Part shown: piece by piece, positions 1 to 18,153 of the stretch
Position numbering within the stretch: position 1 is the stretch's first letter
Layout: each line of letters opens with the position of its first letter
IMG/VR virus record: IMGVR_UViG_3300035698_005703
Location: 1 to 20,289 of that record
DNA: 20,289 bases
Reading direction: 5' to 3' (one strand)
Source of the DNA: a virus
Translations under genes and position numbers: made by a program
Notes under the pieces: generated by a model
What the model was told of the DNA's origin: nothing
Seen by the model: only the letters and a program-made list of their open reading frames with translations
Databases searched by the model: none

Positions 1-3000
1 GTTTCTTCTTCTTGCTGACGCCATAGATTAAAATCATGTATATCAAGAGCCTCATTCTTAACAACTTTTAACTTTACTTTTTCTAAGTCTACATCAGGGT
101 GCCACCCTAACCAATTTGGTGATGGTAAGTATTTCTTAGCAAAAAAATCTGAAAGATCCTCATTCGTTTGCTTTTCTATTCGTGTACTCTCAGTTCCTTC
201 GGGCTTCTTCCTATCCCTTAATTGCCACTGAGCTTCGTATATTCTCTCCATATAGTCAGGAACAATCTCTTTTATTCTTTCTCTTTCTTCGTCTTTAGCC
301 TTAGAGAACTCCATAAAATAACTTCGTTCAGCACTTGGCATTGCTCTGAATATGTTTGACCATGATCCATACGGATTTAATCCGTGCATAGTCTCTTTTG
401 ATCTATCGTCAAATTCCTCTGCAATATCTTCGTCTTCTACTTCTCTAGCCCGTTTAGCTAATTGCTTATACTTAACATATTCAAGTTTATCAAAATAATC
501 TTCTATCTCTCTCTTTTTTTCTACATCAGGTGGAATCCAATTAGGCTGAATCTTTCCTCTTGCCTCTTGATAATATACTTTAGCAAAATCCCTTATTGGT
601 TGTCCCCATGAAGCTGATTCCCTTCCAAATACTTGAAATCTTTCATAATGTTCTATAGGTGTTCTTACTGGCATTATCTTGCTTGTAAGATAACTTAATC
701 CTGGTAGAGGCGTATTAGAAGCTATATGTGCTAAGTTTTCCCACGCAGCAGCAGCTTTCCTTTCTATAGCAGAATACTTCTCTCCTTCATTTGCTTGAGT
801 TAAAGCTTCGTCTACTTGTTTTCTTACCTTTGAAAAGCTTCGAGGCTGAAACTCATAACGTTCCATTCTTGCCTCTCTCTGCTCTCTAGATAAATATACT
901 TTTTCTCTCCACGTCTTGTCAATAACACCAGATCTCATCCAAGCATTTACAATAGTTCTATAGTTCTTAAATTCATTAGAATACGGAGCCACATCAGCAA
1001 GTATAAGATATCTATCTACGGGATCGTATACACCAGGTATATTTGAGTGTAATTCATTTAATGCTTCATACCCAGTTCCAGGAAGTCTAGCTTCACCTAG
1101 GGGTACCTTAGTAAATGGATCACCATGTTTAAAGTCTACAAAATAGTCAGATCCAGGAACCCATGGGTGTTCTTTCCCCATTAGGTTTGGTATAGGATTA
1201 TACTCTTCTATTTGTCTTCTTCTATGAGGAAAAAACCTACGAAATATTTCAGTAGACCCAAGAAGGCCGCCTAAGCTTCTATCCCAATAGTTTCTTTCCG
1301 CGCCAGTAGCCCTAGATGGACTCTGAAGTCTCGCTTGTTCAAATAAACTTTCCCTGCCAGTAATTGCCCTTAGAGCTTCTTGTGTATAAAATCCAGGAAG
1401 ACCCATCCATTCTGTAGTCCTGTATAACTGTTCCCCTATTCTATGCCTTATATCTGTAGGAGAAATAATTTCACCCATTCCTGATCTAGGTATTTCATCT
1501 AGACCAAGACGAGTACTTGTATCAACTGGCATCCTTCGTATTCTAGACGTTTCATCAGGTTGTTCTACTGGGCCATCCTTACCTAACCACTCTTCAGTAT
1601 GCATTAGCTTTCTTGGTTTTATAAGCTTACCAAGAGTAGCATCAAGTGTAGGGCCTATAAGCGGTACGTCCTCAAAGGCTCCTGATGTAATCGGGTATGG
1701 CCTTTCTTTGTAATACTTTTTTTCCCAAGCATAAGGATCTACTTTATTTCCAGTAAGCCGTCCAATAAGCCAATGATTTTGCCATTTCCAATCTTCTGAT
1801 GGATACAATGTTCCTTTTTCTTTGTATCTAGACCTCATTAATGGATACCAATGAGGTTTATAATAATCTATTTTGCCACCCTCGAAAGGCGTCCTACCAA
1901 ACTCCCACCAACGTCCCTTTCTTACTGGTACTTTTTCTTCCCCCGAATATATTCTTTTAAGCTGTTTTGGAGAATAACTAAGAGCTTTTTCTGTAGCGTA
2001 CCCAGCAACACCACCAGCAAAACCCATTATTAATGATGATACAAAGGTATTTGCAAAACTAGAACCAAACGGTTGTGTAGCTTTCATCCCAGAAACAACC
2101 CCAGCAATCATTCCAGCAGCCTTTAAATAGCCTGGAAATAATGTTTGAGTATGTTTATGAAAATCAAGAACACCAAGATTATCAAGAGTCTCCTGCATAA
2201 ACATGCGAGACTTAACCCACATACCAGCACCAGCAGTAGTAATACCTTCTCTTAGTGGAGTTTTATCAAGAGCTTTTGATCTTCTGACTCTGTAGTCTAA
2301 ATAATTGTAACCAACAGTTGCTATATATGCTGGTAGCATTACTCTTGTAGCTACCCTACCAATTACATTTAGTGGACCTCTTGCTCCAGGCTTAAAACCT
2401 GTTCCTACCATTAACCGTTTTACTGCATCTGGGGCTTTTGAAAAACCTGGTAATTCAGAAGGTGTTCCACCTAATATCCATTTTGGTATAGCCTTAAGTT
2501 TTTCCGATGTCTTAGCAAACCCAGCATAACCAACAAAATCTGGTATAGCTTCTATCGTTCTACTATATAGGTGAGCTATACTTTCTTTCGGCCCCCGTAA
2601 ACCATATCCAGTAGCACTTATTTTGCCAACATTTTCTTCAAGCTTTTCCATCCAAAGACGTTGTTTATTCTTGGACATTAATGTCTTACTAAATGGTCGT
2701 CCTTGACTAATTTCAGTAGCTTTTCTTGCAAGACTCTTTACATTCTGAGTTTTTACTGAAGTTATACCACGCAATGGTTTTTCAAATAATGTTTTTTTGC
2801 CAATTTTAATCTTAGGTAAAAGTCGTATTGGTTTTTTAAAAACTATATCTTTTGTTAGCGGGCTCCAGAACTTTTTAGACCCAGGGTAAAAACCAGCACC
2901 CCTGGCACCTCTATACGCAACCATAGTTAATCCAATTCCTACCGCTGCAGCTAAAAGGGCTGAACCAACACCAAACTTTTCTTCAGGAGAACTAAGGTCT

Positions 3001-3056
3001 CCTTCAGTATATGGATTATTGTCTGGCCCTAAGAAATCTTTTTTGTTTAATGCCAT
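1..3056 (-). CDS. Very large virion protein in the tape-measure position (partial, C-terminus beyond left edge)
   Basis: The frame is open from an ATG at 3056 to the left edge, 1,018 codons without a stop; I checked each line of sequence in this frame. The start follows AGGTGGGTG. There is a membrane-like segment at residues 29-48 (core GSALLAAAVGIGLTMVAY) and further hydrophobic stretches near 229-250, 308-325 and 333-352. The rest is unusually rich in Arg, Lys, Trp, Tyr and Pro, with a charged segment near 895-945 (NIFRAMPSAERSYF, then IVPDYMERIYEAQW). It directly follows the two chaperone-like genes, which is where phages normally place the tape measure gene. However, I see no long coiled coil or short-period repeats, so an internal or ejected virion protein is also possible. 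I do not recognise the family. An intrinsic terminator lies just upstream of its start. Confidence 0.75.
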   Translation of the reverse strand, partial: MALNKKDFLGPDNNPYTEGDLSSPEEKFGVGSALLAAAVGIGLTMVAYRGARGAGFYPGSKKFWSPLTKDIVFKKPIRLLPKIKIGKKTLFEKPLRGITSVKTQNVKSLARKATEISQGRPFSKTLMSKNKQRLWMEKLEENVGKISATGYGLRGPKESIAHLYSRTIEAIPDFVGYAGFAKTSEKLKAIPKWILGGTPSELPGFSKAPDAVKRLMVGTGFKPGARGPLNVIGRVATRVMLPAYIATVGYNYLDYRVRRSKALDKTPLREGITTAGAGMWVKSRMFMQETLDNLGVLDFHKHTQTLFPGYLKAAGMIAGVVSGMKATQPFGSSFANTFVSSLIMGFAGGVAGYATEKALSYSPKQLKRIYSGEEKVPVRKGRWWEFGRTPFEGGKIDYYKPHWYPLMRSRYKEKGTLYPSEDWKWQNHWLIGRLTGNKVDPYAWEKKYYKERPYPITSGAFEDVPLIGPTLDATLGKLIKPRKLMHTEEWLGKDGPVEQPDETSRIRRMPVDTSTRLGLDEIPRSGMGEIISPTDIRHRIGEQLYRTTEWMGLPGFYTQEALRAITGRESLFEQARLQSPSRATGAERNYWDRSLGGLLGSTEIFRRFFPHRRRQIEEYNPIPNLMGKEHPWVPGSDYFVDFKHGDPFTKVPLGEARLPGTGYEALNELHSNIPGVYDPVDRYLILADVAPYSNEFKNYRTIVNAWMRSGVIDKTWREKVYLSREQREARMERYEFQPRSFSKVRKQVDEALTQANEGEKYSAIERKAAAAWENLAHIASNTPLPGLSYLTSKIMPVRTPIEHYERFQVFGRESASWGQPIRDFAKVYYQEARGKIQPNWIPPDVEKKREIEDYFDKLEYVKYKQLAKRAREVEDEDIAEEFDDRSKETMHGLNPYGSWSNIFRAMPSAERSYFMEFSKAKDEERERIKEIVPDYMERIYEAQWQLRDRKKPEGTESTRIEKQTNEDLSDFFAKKYLPSPNWLGWHPDVDLEKVKLKVVKNEALDIHDFNLWRQQEEE

Positions 3057-3075
3057 AATGATTTCACCCACCTAT

Positions 3076-3112
3076 AAAAAAAAAGGAATGCAAGCTTATG
3101 AGCCCACATTCC
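3076..3112 (-). terminator. Intrinsic terminator overlapping the end of the second chaperone gene
   Basis: On the minus strand, bases 3112-3085 form a perfect inverted repeat: 12 base pairs (outer arms GGAATG and CATTCC, three G-U wobbles, inner GCT/AGC) closing a CATA loop. It is followed at once by nine T residues (3084-3076). The TAA stop of the 211-residue gene (3098-3096) sits at the loop and the start of the 3' arm. Only 19 bases separate the T-run from the next start codon, so the large downstream gene has no room for its own promoter after the terminator and must depend on read-through or on an upstream promoter. Confidence 0.85.
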
Positions 3113-3731
3113 CTCTATTCAATTTATCAAGATTGTGGTCTTTCTTGGGCATAAAATTGCCTGCCTCTGTTTTAAACAATTCTTTATTGTCTGTCTCAAA
3201 GTTAATTGGACCACTCTCTTGTGTTTTTGTTTTTTGTTTTTTTGGAAGTTCTAATGTAACCCCCAACATTTGTTCAGCGAGGGCTAGATAATGCATAGTT
3301 TTATTGAAATTAAAATTGTCTATTTCTTCTGGAGTTAATGTAGAGAATGCTTTACATAAAATTGCTGTTATCTGGTTATCAACCAGTTCCATTTCTTCTC
3401 TATATTCTGTTAAAGTTTGTGTCAATGCTTCAACTGACGAAAAACCAGATACCTCTATAACTATTCTAGATATTTCTGAAATTGTTCCTGCCAACATGTT
3501 ATCTATATCTTTTTCTGAAATATTCGGATACAAAATACATGTTTTAAAGATAAAGTCCTCTGCTTCGCTAGCTGTAATATTCTGAAGTTCTACCACTATA
3601 TTAAACTCTTTACGGCTAAGGGGTTTAAATATGAAGTAATCTTTATCTATATTCAGTCCATACAGTGTAGACCATTTATCCTTAAGTGTTTGTACCTTCC
3701 TTTTTATTTTATCAGGAAGCTCTTTCTCCAT
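3096..3731 (-). CDS. Tail assembly chaperone-like protein, second of a related pair
   Basis: This 211-residue protein probably helps load or protect the tape measure protein during tail assembly. That is inferred from position (after the tube genes, before the giant gene) and from size. Residues about 20-95 match the preceding 110-residue protein in layout: an acidic or basic lead, a YFIFKPLSRKEF segment (compare YIYRPMKRIEY), an FKTCILYP segment (compare VTKCLISP), then AGTIS followed by a helix ending in SGF or SNF. It then adds a helical part (about 96-165) and a polar, lysine-rich tail that includes an A7 tract. Its ATG overlaps the previous stop as TAATG, so it is probably translated by reinitiation. 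Its stop lies inside a terminator hairpin. Confidence 0.6.
   Translation of the reverse strand: MEKELPDKIKRKVQTLKDKWSTLYGLNIDKDYFIFKPLSRKEFNIVVELQNITASEAEDFIFKTCILYPNISEKDIDNMLAGTISEISRIVIEVSGFSSVEALTQTLTEYREEMELVDNQITAILCKAFSTLTPEEIDNFNFNKTMHYLALAEQMLGVTLELPKKQKTKTQESGPINFETDNKELFKTEAGNFMPKKDHNLDKLNRGNVGS
3237..3243 (-). other. A7 tract in slippery register (possible frameshift site)
   Basis: Within the second chaperone gene, bases 3245-3236 read CC A AAA AAA C in the gene's frame, which is the register of an A_AAA_AAA slippery heptamer. It is followed by two more A-runs separated by single C residues. A -1 slip would end after about eleven codons and give a shorter protein; a +1 slip would stay open for about 35 codons and end near the gene's own stop. 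Neither reaches the next gene. The tract is visible, but its use is not shown. Confidence 0.25.
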
Positions 3732-5608: not shown

Positions 5609-5626
5609 ATTATCTCCTAAAAGATT

Positions 5627-5654
5627 AGAACGGGAGGTTAAGGCCTCCCGCCCC
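5627..5654 (-). promoter_or_regulatory. RNA stem-loop between first and second tube genes
   Basis: On the minus strand CGGGAGG (5650-5644) and CCTCCCG (5637-5631) form a perfect 7-bp stem around a six-base CCTTAA loop. Four flanking G residues could extend it by mostly G-U pairs. The sequence after it is TTCTAATCTTTT, which is not an unbroken T-run, so it is either a weak terminator or a stem protecting the 3' end of the upstream message. It lies in the second-longest gap of the window, 22 bases beyond the stop of the first tube gene. Confidence 0.6.
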
Positions 5655-5671
5655 TATCTATACATATATCC

Positions 5672-9161: not shown

Positions 9162-10625
9162 TTAACTCCATCTTGAAAATATACTTGGCAGTTTAAGATT
9201 TCTCTGACCTCTTGTATTAGCGGCTGGTACGCCTCTATTTCCTGGGTCTTTTGTCCATGTTCTAACCCCTCTTACTGGTGGTATAGCTGAATTCCTAACA
9301 CCTTTTACTACCATTTTAGGATGCGCTTTTGCATCCTTTCCAACCATCCTATCAACCCAAAAAGCCATACATGCTAATGCTTGATCCATAACTGGTTTTA
9401 AGGCTTTTGATATATCAAGTTGATCTTGTACTGTAAAATCTCCAAGTCTTTTTAGTTGTCCTGCTCCACCTAACCTGTTTAAAAGCTCTGCATTTAATAA
9501 ATCATATTGTGTTTTGCAACATGTATACATTTTAGCAGCAAAACTTGGGCTTTCTATTGACCATTGTTCTTGTCCATATGTTTCATTTGACAGTTGATAT
9601 GCCAATAATGAATTTTCAAATATTTTTCTATTTATAGTATCATTTGGAACTTCTCTTATATATGGACCTATAGACATTCTTATTTTCTGCGTCGAGCAAT
9701 ATAAAGGGTTATACGCAGTGGTAAACATAAATTGGCTATTTTCACCAAGCAAGCTCCCGCTAGCATTCATTATATTCTCTGACAAGGTAACTGTTATCTC
9801 GTTGTTCTGATTCCAACCACTTGGATCTAATGCTGCCCAATACAATATGTTTCCACTAGGTGGATATATATATCCGCTAGGAACAGTAGCGGGGAACATC
9901 GGATCTCCATTTACAGGTTCAGCACTTATTGTAAGCCAATCTAAATAAGCAATTCCATTAGGCCAAAGATCTTCATTAAATGTTACATATATACTAGTTG
10001 GTCCTACAGGCTGAGAAAGTCCAGACGGATCTGGATAACCAGAAGGTTTAGGATTAACTCCAGCTGGTTCTGCTATAAATACATTACCATTAGGAGTTGC
10101 TACATTTTCCCACCCTGACGATAATAATACCCCCATATTAGTATCTCTGTGTTCTGGGGTAGTATCTGTTATCGCAAAATCAAGACTAACAGTAGGCTCT
10201 AATATTGGAATAGTAGGTGACGAAGCTACTGTTTCTTCTGGGTTAGTTGGTTCTGGTTCAGTCTGAGGCGGTACATATATTTCACTACCAGTAACAAACT
10301 GTATCAATCCAGAAACTGCAAGGCTTCCCAATGTAGAACTTTTTACACAATCTGAAGATTGATCTAACCCAACAGTTATAAATGTATAGGCAGTATTTTC
10401 ATCTAACGATTGCTCTGGAATAAACGTAGCTGTAAAATTTGACGAATCATAACTAATCATACCATCTTGCTGAGCGTAATCGCTAGATCTATAAAGCAAC
10501 AAAGTATTTTTATTTACACTAGATGCATGCATGTCCTGATCAAAAACAACAAGTATCTGTTGGTTTAAGTATACATTAGATGCAGCATTTAGTGGTGTGT
10601 TTGTTGTTATGAGTGGGGCAGCCAT
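9162..10625 (-). CDS. Head-tail connector-like protein with two N-terminal Ig-like domains
   Basis: This 487-residue protein has a mosaic layout. Residues 3-115 form an SbsA/Big_5-type Ig-like domain (NTPLNAASNVYLNQQILVVF, then TATFIPEQSLDENTAYTF). A Pro/Glu/Thr-rich linker follows at about 116-145. Residues 150-305 are a second, Pro/Gly-rich Ig-like domain (TSIYVTFNEDLWP, EITVTLSENIMN). From about 310 to the end the character changes to helical and basic, with SLLAYQLSNETYG, KTQYDLLNAELLNRL, a helix with ALKPVMDQALACMAFWVDRM, and a basic end LKLPSIFSRWS. The position after the capsid gene and the helical C-terminus fit a connector or neck ring, with the Ig domains displayed as a collar. The Ig calls are firmer than the connector call. 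Confidence 0.6.
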   Translation of the reverse strand: MAAPLITTNTPLNAASNVYLNQQILVVFDQDMHASSVNKNTLLLYRSSDYAQQDGMISYDSSNFTATFIPEQSLDENTAYTFITVGLDQSSDCVKSSTLGSLAVSGLIQFVTGSEIYVPPQTEPEPTNPEETVASSPTIPILEPTVSLDFAITDTTPEHRDTNMGVLLSSGWENVATPNGNVFIAEPAGVNPKPSGYPDPSGLSQPVGPTSIYVTFNEDLWPNGIAYLDWLTISAEPVNGDPMFPATVPSGYIYPPSGNILYWAALDPSGWNQNNEITVTLSENIMNASGSLLGENSQFMFTTAYNPLYCSTQKIRMSIGPYIREVPNDTINRKIFENSLLAYQLSNETYGQEQWSIESPSFAAKMYTCCKTQYDLLNAELLNRLGGAGQLKRLGDFTVQDQLDISKALKPVMDQALACMAFWVDRMVGKDAKAHPKMVVKGVRNSAIPPVRGVRTWTKDPGNRGVPAANTRGQRNLKLPSIFSRWS

Positions 10626-10634
10626 GCGTTATCC

Positions 10635-11111
10635 TTATATTAGGTTTATTTTAACTTCTTCCTTGTCAGCCAAATCTTCTTCAACATTAGATATACCAGA
10701 CATTGATCCAAGAAGTTCCTCTATTTTATCTATAATAGTTTTCCTATTTTTATCGTTTTTTTCTAACATTAATAACTTTTCAAGTCTAGCAACAGGGGCA
10801 TCTTCATCTTTTCCTGGAGTATTAGATATCTTCTCAAGAAATGGTATCATCTTTTTAACACCTTTTTCTAAAAGATCCTTATCGCTTCTTTGGTTAGGTA
10901 TTTCAATTTCTTTCTCTACCGCATACCCAAGTACCAAAACACCAGTTGCTACTGACCTTTGTATCATTTGAAGATAAGAATCACCTATATCTTCTGGTAT
11001 TACCTCTGTATCTTGAATTCCAGCTCTTAGATTAATTCCATTTTTACCTTGAAAATAATACGCTCTAACATTCTTATTGAGGCTTATCCTGCTTCCTCTT
11101 TTAACTTCCAT
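10635..11111 (-). CDS. Unknown small head or neck protein
   Basis: A 158-residue protein between the capsid and connector-like genes. The first half is mixed alpha/beta (LNKNVRAYYFQGKNGINLRAG, EVIPEDIGDSYLQMIQRSVATG, VLVLGYAVEKEI). The second half is charged and helical (about 72-140: LLEKGVKKMIPFLEK, VARLEKLLMLEKNDKNRK, IDKIEELLGS). I do not recognise a family. Position suggests a minor head or head-completion component. It has a good ribosome site (AGGAGGAATTA before ATG), follows the stem-loop after the capsid gene, and ends 9 bases before the next start. Confidence 0.6.
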   Translation of the reverse strand: MEVKRGSRISLNKNVRAYYFQGKNGINLRAGIQDTEVIPEDIGDSYLQMIQRSVATGVLVLGYAVEKEIEIPNQRSDKDLLEKGVKKMIPFLEKISNTPGKDEDAPVARLEKLLMLEKNDKNRKTIIDKIEELLGSMSGISNVEEDLADKEEVKINLI

Positions 11112-11137
11112 TAATTCCTCCTAGTTTACTAATATGA

Positions 11138-11163
11138 GCAAGAGAGGCCTAAGCCCCTCCTGC
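11138..11163 (-). promoter_or_regulatory. RNA stem-loop after the major capsid gene
   Basis: On the minus strand GCAGGAGGGGC (11163-11153) pairs with GCCTCTCTTGC (11148-11138) over 11 base pairs, two of them G-U, closing a TTAG loop. On the plus strand those two positions would be A-C mismatches, so the structure fits minus-strand RNA. No T-run follows (TCATATTAG), so it is not a standard intrinsic terminator. A role in 3' end stability, processing or partial termination is inferred. It lies in the longest gap of the window, 16 bases beyond the capsid stop codon. Confidence 0.65.
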
Positions 11164-11179
11164 ATCATAATAAATTTCC

Positions 11180-12493
11180 TTAGACACCTGTTTGGTTAAT
11201 GCTAGTTAAAGCACCGCTACCTGCCTGCCATGAAAGTGCGTCTTCAAAGTCATAAGCTCTGACTATGTTAACATTCTTAGCAACAGCTATAGCTAAACCT
11301 TCATTCAGAATACCAAGTCCATATCTTTCCCTGAACTTAATAGATCTTATATCTCTGTTAGGGTCATCCCATTCTTCGGTCGTAACTTCTTCGTCTATAA
11401 CTATAATACCAAGTTCATTAGAATCAGCCATTATAATATCTGTAAATGCTGCTGTAGAACCTGAACTAGCAGTATAAGATACAAATGGGCTTACAACTAT
11501 CCTAAGCGGTGCTGGAAATAGATTAGGAACGTTAGCATATGTAGAAGCAACGTTTTGAGCTGTTGCAACTGGACCAACGTTATTTCCGCCCTGATACCAC
11601 TGACTTGCAAGACCTGGTTTGCCTTGTAGAGGTGAGAATATCGGACCACCATTCGCAAAGCCAAAGGCTCTTAGAATTGGGTCTCTTGCGAAAACTAACC
11701 ATCCTAATGGACTCATGAGCAGAGTATTAGGAACAAAACCTCTTTGCACTATCTTAGAATACATTACTAAAAGATCGTCTAATGTTATTGTACCATTTCC
11801 TGCTCCCGCAGAATCTCTACCGGATGTTTGCTTATTAGCAACGTTATTGTCAAATACTGTCACACCTTCGTTGTTTATCATATTGAAGATTTTTGTTTCT
11901 TTGTGACGAGCAAGTGCACGACCAGCAGCACGAATATGCATGCTCATAACGTCATACTGTGAATACCTAAGCATTTCGTCGGTTATCCTTACCTTTACAC
12001 CACTCTTGCCAATGAAGGCAGTAACGGTTCCTGCAACCTCTAACTTTCTTTCCGGGTATTCTCCGCCTTCTGGAATATCTTCGGCAGTGAATGCACCAGC
12101 TGCAGGGAAGGTAATTTGCTGACCAGCAGAAAATCTAATAGGCTGCAGTAAGCTTGTACCAACAAGAAGAGGCTCTATAGCTTCCTTAACAACGTTTGAT
12201 ATAACTTTAGGAATCAATATTGAAGCGTCCGGTGTAGAAAGAGCATCACAAAGATCTCCAAAACCGATCTTTTTATCTTTCATAACTGAACTATACTGAT
12301 CTTCAATGTTTTCAAAACCATTGTTAATCCATACCTTATAGGCATTCTCGTATTTATCCTGTAGAATAGGGTCAGAAAACATTTTGCGAGAAGTGCTGTC
12401 TGTTCTTTCAGCCATCTTACTTGCAACTTTAACTGAAACTTGATCAACAAGCTCATCAGTTACTTCTAATCCTACCTTTTTTATATCTTCCAT
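11180..12493 (-). CDS. Major capsid protein (HK97 fold)
   Basis: This 437-residue protein builds the icosahedral shell. An N-terminal helical, charged region (about 1-100) could be the delta-domain removed by the prohead protease. The HK97-like body begins with LIPKVISNVVKEAIEPLLVG, an extended loop (GQQITFPAAGAFTAEDIPEG), VRITDEMLRYSQYDVMSM, and the spine helix AAGRALARHKETKIFNMINN. A-domain elements include GTITLDDLLVMYSKI, RGFVPNTLLMSPLGWLVF, FTDIIMADSNELGIIVIDEE and the C-terminal KFRERYGLGILNEGLAIAVA. The site AAAGAAGGAGAAAGATAA precedes the ATG. Context (protease-scaffold and decoration upstream, connector downstream) agrees, and an RNA stem-loop follows the gene. Confidence 0.93.
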   Translation of the reverse strand: MEDIKKVGLEVTDELVDQVSVKVASKMAERTDSTSRKMFSDPILQDKYENAYKVWINNGFENIEDQYSSVMKDKKIGFGDLCDALSTPDASILIPKVISNVVKEAIEPLLVGTSLLQPIRFSAGQQITFPAAGAFTAEDIPEGGEYPERKLEVAGTVTAFIGKSGVKVRITDEMLRYSQYDVMSMHIRAAGRALARHKETKIFNMINNEGVTVFDNNVANKQTSGRDSAGAGNGTITLDDLLVMYSKIVQRGFVPNTLLMSPLGWLVFARDPILRAFGFANGGPIFSPLQGKPGLASQWYQGGNNVGPVATAQNVASTYANVPNLFPAPLRIVVSPFVSYTASSGSTAAFTDIIMADSNELGIIVIDEEVTTEEWDDPNRDIRSIKFRERYGLGILNEGLAIAVAKNVNIVRAYDFEDALSWQAGSGALTSINQTGV

Positions 12494-15555: not shown

Positions 15556-18153
15556 TTAATTCTTATACTCCATAAATCCCATATCACAAGTAAATATATT
15601 ACCTGCATTTGCCGATGACCAGTCAGCCGTTACAGTTATGTCCAATGCTCCAGTAGTGGTTATTTCAGATACATCACACGCAACGGTTGACGATTCTCCA
15701 TCAATAACCATGTCCATATGCCAAGCCATATGTCCAGTGGATCCAACGTCTCTTACTATTGCCATGCCTTTTATATGCCAACATGCATCGGTAAGTTTAC
15801 CCCCTACCGATACTAATGTGGCTACCGTGTTTGTACCTACCTTAACTCGTATAGTTACATCTTGTGATGTTGCAAAGTTAGTTATAGTTCCTGACATACT
15901 CATTTTAAGTACATTGCCTGCTACCCAAGAATTTGCAGGAACAGAAGCAGTATAAACTACTGTTTCATCTGCATCGTCTGCAACGGTTGTAGTAGAGGTC
16001 TTAACATCAGAAGTTCTGTCAATAGCTTTTTGCAAAGACTTATTAGTTATATATAACTTGTTATCATAAAACTCTAATGTACCTGCTACTGGTGTCCCTA
16101 ATAAGGAACTTGAACCTATATTTATAACTCCATCTACTTCTAATATATTCTTTATATATAAACTATCTTCGTCTAAAGTAAGAGTAGGGCTTGATGAACC
16201 CGAACTATCTATTGAAACATAACCGTCATCACCTGCATTTGCTTTTGCCCCACCGTATAAATATAATACTCCACCATCATAAGGGTCACCACTTACTGAA
16301 TCGTCATCCCCATCTCCTGCATGAATGTATAAATCATATCCATCATCATCTTCGCTTACACAATTAATATTTCCTTCTGCACCTTCCCAATATAATTCCC
16401 CAGCATAACAATCCCAAGAAATATCACCGCTCTCCATACTTAATGCTGAATCATAGTTAGTACCAACATTATAAGCTGATATAAAACTTGTTCCTCCATT
16501 GTCTACATAATCAGAAGCTACAAAACATTTAATTCCTGCATCATTATCATTATCATCACCAACTGGAACGCACGAAAATCCTTTCATTATACCTGTAGAC
16601 CCACCTGAATAATTAGTTACGGTTGCCACATAAGCAGAACCATTAGCGTAATCTGCACCCATAGTATATCTTACCGATATTCCAAATTCATCTGTCTGAG
16701 TTGGGGCTGCAACAATTTCTAAAACTGTTTCATCTACCGCACCAGTTATTTTACTTCTAACACCTGCTGAATTTGTAACATCTATCCCACCTGAAAATGT
16801 TACTAAACCAGTTGAGGTTAAAACTAACTGACCTGTATTTCCACCTGCTTGAAGTGTTATTGTATTAGTATTAAAATCTAAATATGTATCTACGTCGCCT
16901 GTATGATATAACTGATTTGTCATTCCTATATTGTGTGCACCAAATAAGGTTCCAGCCATTGTTATATCATCAGTAGAGGTAATTTGTTCCGCTGATATAG
17001 TTCCAGTAGTAGTTAAATTGTTATCACTAAAATCCCAATCACCTGCTGTATCTATACTTGTTTCAATAGTACCACCTATACTTACGTCTATGGTATCCCC
17101 GTTTAAAGCTGTATTTACGCTATCATCCCCGAAAATAGTTTGTGCATCGTTGGATGACCATATCTCTGCCTCTACGGTACCGCCAGTATTATATGCTACA
17201 ATTGGGGGTGTAAAATTGGTTGTCCAACGAGCTGTCTTACTTATTCTAAACTCGTCTAGTTGACCTATTACACCAGCAGTTTTATCCACATTATTACCAA
17301 CAACAATACCCTTAGAACTACCTACTAATGTTCCAGCTCCACCTGCTGTGCCATCTGCTACACCGTCATAATAGAAAGTTAAAGTTGCTCCATTCTTTAC
17401 AAGGGCTAAATGATGAAAAGCTGTAGCATCTGTATGTGCATTAGTGCTTGTTATTACTGCGTTCCCACCTGAATGAGCAACTACTATCTCAAACTTGTTA
17501 TCAGCTTTATGCCTCATGTAATAAGCAGATGTTACTCCAGCTATATTATTACTCCATCTATCGATTATCCAAGCAGAAGCACCTACCGAAGTACGCTTCA
17601 TTTGAAAGTCTATTGTGAAATCACCGTTAGCAGCGTCCCAGTCAGGAGAATCTGGATATTGCGCCTTATCGTTACCATCGAAACCACCAGCACCCGCACC
17701 AAACTTCTTAGTAACAGTATCTATAGTAGCACCATCAGTAGACGGCGTATGAACCGTTGTAGCCCCTACGGAACTATCAGTATAATCACTATCCATAGTA
17801 AGCAATAAAACTGCGCTACTATCGTTACCTCCGCCACCCGTGCCTATGTTATTATACCTTGTAGCTTGATTATTTGTATCAGATCTAATTATTCTTGTAT
17901 ATTCGGAATTTCCAGTATCTGTTAATCTGATTTCAGGATCAACTTTTGAGATTTCAAGGTTACCAGTTAATGGGTCATTGGAAGTATCAAGCTTTAAATA
18001 TGGTAATGAATTATTTACTACAAGTGTATACACGGCTTCCGAAAGATGATAATAATCATCCGATAAACCACCCTGTATGCTTTTTAATGTATTATGTTTA
18101 TGGCGAAGAAGGTGTTCGTCTGAAGTTAGAATTTCTTTTAAAAATTTAGCCAC
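15556..18153 (-). CDS. Fibre-like surface protein with a LamG/concanavalin-type domain
   Basis: This 865-residue protein starts with GTG (18153) after a run of six G residues (GGGGGGTTAA). Residues 1-50 are helical. At 58-90 there is a typical phage fibre segment (NDPLTGNLEISKVDPEIRLT). Residues about 112-320 are a LamG-type lectin domain (GFDGNDKAQYPDSPDW, GDFTIDFQMKR, FHHLALVKNGATLTFYYDGV, then GQLDEFRISKTARWTTNF). The middle is beta-rich fibre shaft. Residues about 590-632 are very rich in Asp and Gly, possibly binding calcium. The C-terminal 140 residues form another beta domain with SGTITNFATSQDVTIRVKV. It probably binds glycans on the host surface. Whether it is mounted on the tail or on the capsid is unclear; its place beside head genes favours a head fibre. 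Confidence 0.8.
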   Translation of the reverse strand: MAKFLKEILTSDEHLLRHKHNTLKSIQGGLSDDYYHLSEAVYTLVVNNSLPYLKLDTSNDPLTGNLEISKVDPEIRLTDTGNSEYTRIIRSDTNNQATRYNNIGTGGGGNDSSAVLLLTMDSDYTDSSVGATTVHTPSTDGATIDTVTKKFGAGAGGFDGNDKAQYPDSPDWDAANGDFTIDFQMKRTSVGASAWIIDRWSNNIAGVTSAYYMRHKADNKFEIVVAHSGGNAVITSTNAHTDATAFHHLALVKNGATLTFYYDGVADGTAGGAGTLVGSSKGIVVGNNVDKTAGVIGQLDEFRISKTARWTTNFTPPIVAYNTGGTVEAEIWSSNDAQTIFGDDSVNTALNGDTIDVSIGGTIETSIDTAGDWDFSDNNLTTTGTISAEQITSTDDITMAGTLFGAHNIGMTNQLYHTGDVDTYLDFNTNTITLQAGGNTGQLVLTSTGLVTFSGGIDVTNSAGVRSKITGAVDETVLEIVAAPTQTDEFGISVRYTMGADYANGSAYVATVTNYSGGSTGIMKGFSCVPVGDDNDNDAGIKCFVASDYVDNGGTSFISAYNVGTNYDSALSMESGDISWDCYAGELYWEGAEGNINCVSEDDDGYDLYIHAGDGDDDSVSGDPYDGGVLYLYGGAKANAGDDGYVSIDSSGSSSPTLTLDEDSLYIKNILEVDGVINIGSSSLLGTPVAGTLEFYDNKLYITNKSLQKAIDRTSDVKTSTTTVADDADETVVYTASVPANSWVAGNVLKMSMSGTITNFATSQDVTIRVKVGTNTVATLVSVGGKLTDACWHIKGMAIVRDVGSTGHMAWHMDMVIDGESSTVACDVSEITTTGALDITVTADWSSANAGNIFTCDMGFMEYKN

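Follow-up and report, generated by a model that had tools for sequence, protein, structure and literature searches.

A hairpin followed directly by a U-tract lies between a tail-chaperone-type gene and a large structural gene in the window, a virus record of 20,289 bases. This fragment comes from an uncultured phage with a contractile tail, and the genes recognised in it are all on the minus strand. The element recurs at the same junction in close relatives of the phage, and the combination of hairpin and U-tract at this position is not due to chance. It is probably a leaky intrinsic terminator within the late structural operon that produces a fixed transcriptional step-down.

The hairpin, the T-run, and the chaperone stop codon are all on the minus strand, and their positions are listed in Table 1 together with those of the neighboring genes. 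The stem is composed of nine Watson-Crick and three G-U pairs, and four further pairs are possible between the preceding A-tail and the T-run, extending the stem to 16 bp (3116-3081). The stop codon of the 211-aa open reading frame contributes two bases to the loop and one to the 3' arm, and 19 nt separate the T-run from the ATG of the large gene. The original prediction had described a 12-bp stem, a four-base loop, nine T residues, a stop codon within the hairpin, and a distance of 19 bases, all of which are confirmed, with the strand now specified as minus. The minus-strand fold of 3040-3130 has an energy of -21.6 kcal/mol (z = -2.29), a value equaled or bettered by 4 of 200 shuffled sequences; the plus-strand fold of the region is ordinary (z = -0.80). 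The combined score for hairpin and U-tract at the window junction is reached by none of 400 dinucleotide shuffles. The element thus has the two features of an intrinsic terminator, a stable hairpin and a U-tract directly after it.

Table 1. Positions of the junction element, its neighboring genes, and two further hairpins in the window
Feature	Position	Strand	Basis or remark
Large downstream gene, virion structural, cut by the window edge	1..3056	minus	homologue of ME3_35
ATG of the large gene	3056-3054	minus	
Shine-Dalgarno-like AGGTGG of the large gene	3068..3073	minus	by eye
U-tract, nine T directly 3' of the stem	3076..3084	minus	U-tract at the junction in 8/8 relatives
Putative terminator stem, 12 bp, CATA loop	3085..3112	minus	fold, shuffles, 8/8 relatives
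3' arm AGCTTGCATTCC	3096-3085	minus	
TAA stop of the 211-aa chaperone-type gene, within the hairpin	3096..3098	minus	
Loop CATA	3100-3097	minus	
5' arm GGAATGTGGGCT	3112-3101	minus	read 5' to 3' on the minus strand
Second tail-chaperone-type gene, 211 aa	3096..3731	minus	homologues and paralogy with neighbor
First tail-chaperone-type gene, 110 aa	3731..4063	minus	TAA overlaps next ATG
Hairpin after the first tube gene, poor U-tract	5622..5659	minus	other scan lists 5654-5627
Hairpin 3' of the major capsid gene, lacking a U-tract (-23.1 kcal/mol)	11133..11169	minus	

A search of IMG/VR with a tube-protein profile identified hundreds of relatives, of which eleven are at least 75% identical, and one further relative was found in a contig of a Fermentibacteria metagenome-assembled genome (MAG). 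The junction is readable in eight loci having tube proteins at least 75% identical (the window, L002, L007, L008, L011, L012, L014, and L164), and in all eight a hairpin and U-tract lie between the chaperone and large genes, with energies of -14.4 to -20.1 kcal/mol. In every one of the eight the score is reached by 0 of 400 shuffles; the combined p of 2e-13 ignores relatedness, and the loci are kin and therefore amount to fewer than eight independent cases. The basal stems are diverse across the clade (GGAATG/CATTCC, GAGGAG/CTCCTC, GGGGATA/TATCCCC; the arm types comprise GGAATG, GGGAAT, GAGGAG, and GGGGATA), and the C-terminal tails of the chaperones are mostly dissimilar. Since the arms and the chaperone C-termini diverge while the hairpin stays, it is the structure that has been kept and not the sequence. 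The idea that the hairpin is peculiar to one genome can be rejected, as it is present at all eight junctions. The window's branch forms a group in the tube tree, possibly with L017 within it. A hairpin at this junction was not found in MTATph1, KLEB27-3, or ME3, nor in almost all of the more distantly related loci that are readable there; L045 has a weak hairpin overlapping the stop (-13.4). Rfam gave no match at the gathering score in the window or seven related loci, and no nearby DNA relatives were found among named phages.

Within the operon the element stands alone. In every clade contig containing the junction, including one of 75 kb (G004), it exceeds all other coding-strand U-tract hairpins outside genes. 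Leaving aside a low-complexity repeat where the contig ends (-15.5), its best genuine rival in G004 has an energy of just -10.1, and no further comparable site occurs across the ~32 kb of same-strand genes that follow the junction. These co-directional genes contradict the earlier statement that the hairpin ends the head-and-tail block. Sheath, tube, and capsid genes lie upstream of the hairpin and the large structural gene downstream, and in the contig of L002 a Baseplate_J protein is encoded among the genes downstream of the junction.

Other hairpins of the clade are of a different kind. Those after the capsid gene mostly have energies of -23 to -32 kcal/mol; the range for those following the first tube gene is -16 to -28. 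In most of them the U-tract is weak or absent, and nearly all begin after their own stop codon, most of them nearby (+3 to +17). The hairpins of the window at 11133-11169 and 5622-5659 (minus strand), which recur across the clade, are candidate stabilizers of mRNA 3' ends. The operon therefore uses hairpins that are not terminators, and the junction hairpin might similarly be an element of RNA stability or processing that guards the 3' end of the upstream mRNA or separates transcripts. This is improbable, as the junction hairpin alone consistently carries a U-tract (8 of 8), which processing does not need. The capsid and tube hairpin sites of the clade are also the positions of U-tract terminators in other lineages, and the tube hairpin of the window in particular matches a site where many of them have one.

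Strong U-tract terminators are also present in this module in other lineages of the superfamily, where most of them follow tube or capsid genes. In these lineages, including Acinetobacter phage ME3, they stand 3' of the tube gene and/or of a gene of ~420-430 aa, probably encoding the capsid protein, and in KLEB27-3 and L165 the terminator sits between two chaperone genes. Spacing from stop to terminator in these lineages is 10-40 nt, with a median of 26 nt; a few overlapping cases, one of them in MTATph1, are not included in this median. In some of the broader relatives the stretch examined contains no U-tract hairpin close to the end of a gene, so that such a terminator is not a universal feature. 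The comparison suggests that the position of the internal terminator varies by branch, falling after the capsid gene, after the tube gene, between the chaperone genes, or after them.

The gene upstream of the hairpin is plausibly a tail chaperone. In MTATph1 and KLEB27-3 its homologues immediately precede the homologous large gene, with a weaker candidate in ME3. The two small genes of the window are paralogues sharing PHROG 29362, and the chaperone profile also matches ME3_33, annotated as 'putative tail chaperonin'. As adjacent paralogous small genes between the tube genes and the large tail genes they have the features expected of a two-gene tail chaperonin, and they resemble gp143/gp144 of phage 0305phi8-36, also a paralogous pair, which are placed one gene from the tape measure gp146 (PMC2147016). 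The large gene is well conserved and homologous to ME3_35, MTATph1 CDS26, and KLEB27-3 gp031/gp033. The annotation of ME3 matches its hub to 0305phi8-36 YP_001429638 and ME3_35 to YP_001429636, which fits a gp145-like large gene, as judged via the matches of ME3. The gene following the large gene has no blastp similarity between the contig of L002 and G004, as expected of a fast-changing tape measure, a role that the large gene probably does not have. The chaperone identity in the original prediction is thus plausible, given the paralogy, ME3_33, and gp143/gp144, whereas its description of the downstream gene as occupying the tape-measure slot is probably wrong, given the homology to ME3_35 and the published gene order (PMC2147016).

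Several irregularities were observed in these genes and others of the module. In L002 a group I intron-like match (RF00028, 2510-2689, plus strand; E 5.4e-7, with 35.1 bits falling short of the gathering score of 50) lies near an apparently split major capsid gene having a 152-aa ORF between its pieces, and G004 has a 375-nt gap in the capsid region with a motif similar to that of L002; the capsid gene of the window (11180-12493) is intact. The large-gene homologue of Bacillus phage KLEB27-3 (L004, 13827-20980) is in two pieces, gp031 and gp033, separated by the 211-aa gp032, a possible intron or homing-gene insertion. In the lake-type loci L058, L066, L074, and L076 (about 10600-11830) the chaperone-profile matches are ~150-220 nt apart, whereas the genes of the window touch, and in L009 (11131-11497) an in-frame TAA close to the end of the contig interrupts the second chaperone frame, through sequencing error or mutation. 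L011 and L014 lack a Shine-Dalgarno sequence between the U-tract and the ATG of the large gene, though most genes there have one, so that translation of this gene may be weak or unusually started. The structural block of the window also encodes an 865-aa protein (15556-18153, minus strand) with a Laminin-G/concanavalin-like domain (PF13385, E 1.1e-13). Fusion of the chaperone to the large gene by read-through or by slippage on the T-run was considered and rejected in view of a second in-frame TAG (3074-3072) in the window; the two frames agree in the window but differ in L007, and L002 has a TGA.

Tailed phages contain hundreds of capsid, sheath, and tube subunits and few copies of each tail-tip part. 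A leaky terminator at this junction would act at the border between the two classes: polymerase arriving from the capsid, sheath, tube, and chaperone genes would mostly halt at the U-tract, and the fraction reading through would transcribe the large structural gene together with the probable tape-measure gene and the genes of the baseplate. We infer both the partial efficiency and this purpose. The stop codon would fall within the hairpin as a consequence of the terminator being built partly from the fast-changing 3' end of the chaperone gene. The need for read-through follows from the lack of a recognised promoter. Within the clade only 24-54 nt separate the chaperone stop from the listed start of the large gene, and a scan of the minus strand of the window from 3150 to 3056, covering promoters of the sigma-70-like type alone, found none. 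With 19 nt between U-tract and ATG and no sigma-70-like site, transcripts of the large gene must pass the terminator unless a promoter of another type overlaps the hairpin, and one of an unrecognised, phage-specific type is possible. Alternatively, termination might be complete and the large gene might have its own promoter, concealed within the hairpin or just past it; stretches vaguely resembling a -10 element do follow the stem (TTTTTATAGG in the window and L002/L007, TTTTTTATAGG in L164). This arrangement is nevertheless very improbable: the resemblance is not conserved in L008, L011, L012, or L014, and the stretch is more simply explained as U-tract plus Shine-Dalgarno, with no sigma-70 match there.

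The same junction is distinguished by the position of its stop codon. The stop lies inside the hairpin in five of the eight loci. In two others it overlaps or just reaches the base of the hairpin, and in the remaining one it precedes the hairpin by 7 nt; counted from the end of the stop to the start of the hairpin, the distances are -20, -15, -16, -34, -19, 0, -2, and +7. Overlap or contact is therefore found for 7 of 8 junction hairpins but for at most 2 of 19 capsid and tube hairpins of the clade (Fisher p = 3e-4, relatedness ignored), and it has been kept while the hairpin and the chaperone C-terminus changed almost completely. The original prediction of a terminator-like element containing the chaperone stop is in this respect supported by the same junction hairpin and U-tract in 8 of 8 close relatives.

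The overlap could make termination dependent on translation. A ribosome at or near the chaperone stop would cover the 5' arm and block the hairpin so that polymerase continues, and without translation of the chaperone the operon would be cut off. In E. coli, moving the stop codon from 28 to 5 bp from the terminator tR2 lowered termination from ~90% to under 10%, full termination was regained at distances above 27-30 nt, and the effect disappeared when translation was removed (PMC4824070). Masking at such spacing makes gating physically sound if the host couples transcription and translation, and the persistence of the overlap in seven of eight loci despite sequence turnover, together with the placement of the other hairpins of the clade past their stops and of terminators in other lineages a median of 26 nt past theirs, is in its favor. 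The restriction of the overlap to the junction hairpin within the clade keeps gating a possibility, but on balance an unlikely one. Coupling is not universal (PMC7858274), the coding strands of the clade are purine-rich, a bias in the same direction as that described in species showing runaway transcription (PMC13323073), and tight intergenic space can by itself give overlap. Still less likely is a stronger form, in which the terminator over the chaperone stop serves as a cis-acting assembly checkpoint and ribosomes completing the chaperone license transcription of the tail-tip module. The tie between chaperone and client output suggested earlier is, even with coupling, unlikely to be one of amount, since halving upstream translation barely altered termination in E. 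coli (PMC4824070).

Alternatively, the overlap may be neutral. If the host transcribes faster than it translates, a terminator over a stop codon carries no regulation, an explanation that concerns the overlap only and is compatible with a leaky terminator. In B. subtilis polymerase outruns ribosomes, and the distance from stop to terminator is accordingly only a few nt (PMC7858274). The capsid and tube hairpins of the clade are for the most part near their stops as well. The coding-strand purine excess of the clade (0.116-0.159) is mostly above that of other loci and is matched among the comparators only by Bacillus phage KLEB27-3. As a proxy for an uncoupled host this excess is suggestive only: across 52 loci it correlates weakly with the distance between stop and hairpin (Spearman -0.25, p = 0.07), and the MAG holding a relative has an excess of 0.056, with too few terminators to judge and a link to the phage made via binning. 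Neutrality also leaves unexplained why only the junction hairpin lies over its stop, and it is a tenable but doubtful account. Clues to the host are few, as no tRNA was found in eleven clade loci, and for Fermentibacteria the tube gene is absent from the 42 other genomes of the phylum that were searched and the composition is mismatched. The leaky terminator is consistent with either kind of host; in one that couples transcription and translation, masking of the hairpin by ribosomes that complete the chaperone would add to read-through.

Among known systems, the closest parallel for the step-down is Tphi of phage T7, which lies after capsid gene 10; expression of genes 11 and 12 depends entirely on its read-through (PMC5592923). 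Here as there a terminator comes right after high-copy structural genes, the junction divides high-copy from low-copy genes on one strand, and the downstream genes, having no sigma-70-like promoter before the next gene, would be reached by read-through. Tphi differs in acting on the phage's own polymerase and in following the capsid gene, whereas in the present phage the terminator follows a chaperone pair and has a stop codon within its hairpin. The broader 0305phi8-36/ME3-type lineages likewise have strong U-tract hairpins within the same structural operon, but at other junctions and mostly 10-40 nt past the stop rather than over it. The original prediction compared the overlap with the trp attenuator, which resembles it in principle as translation-dependent termination. 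That system, however, requires mutually exclusive hairpins and a sensing leader peptide, neither of which is seen here, and the fold of 3040-3130 contains no alternative antiterminator hairpin but one dominant hairpin and a small one over the start region. A closer analogue is pyrBI, in which the ribosome masks the hairpin directly, tight coupling preventing its formation (Roland, Liu and Turnbough 1988, as described in PMC5021804 and PMC4824070). In both cases a translated frame runs into the terminator, here with the stop inside or touching the hairpin in 7 of 8 loci; in the pyrBI system the frame is a short leader-peptide gene, pausing is programmed, and UTP is sensed, whereas the present frame is a 211-aa gene of the structural module, with a presumed role in assembly. 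The tR2 reporter series shares a terminator a few nt from a stop within an operon, but is a synthetic construct in a known coupling host. The stop overlap in the window's branch is thus the arrangement known in E. coli to make termination translation-dependent, and for this lineage of large tailed phages an internal terminator is suggested as a partial solution to the differing need for high- and low-copy proteins. The overlap of this conserved, probable terminator with a stop codon is unusual and is itself conserved.
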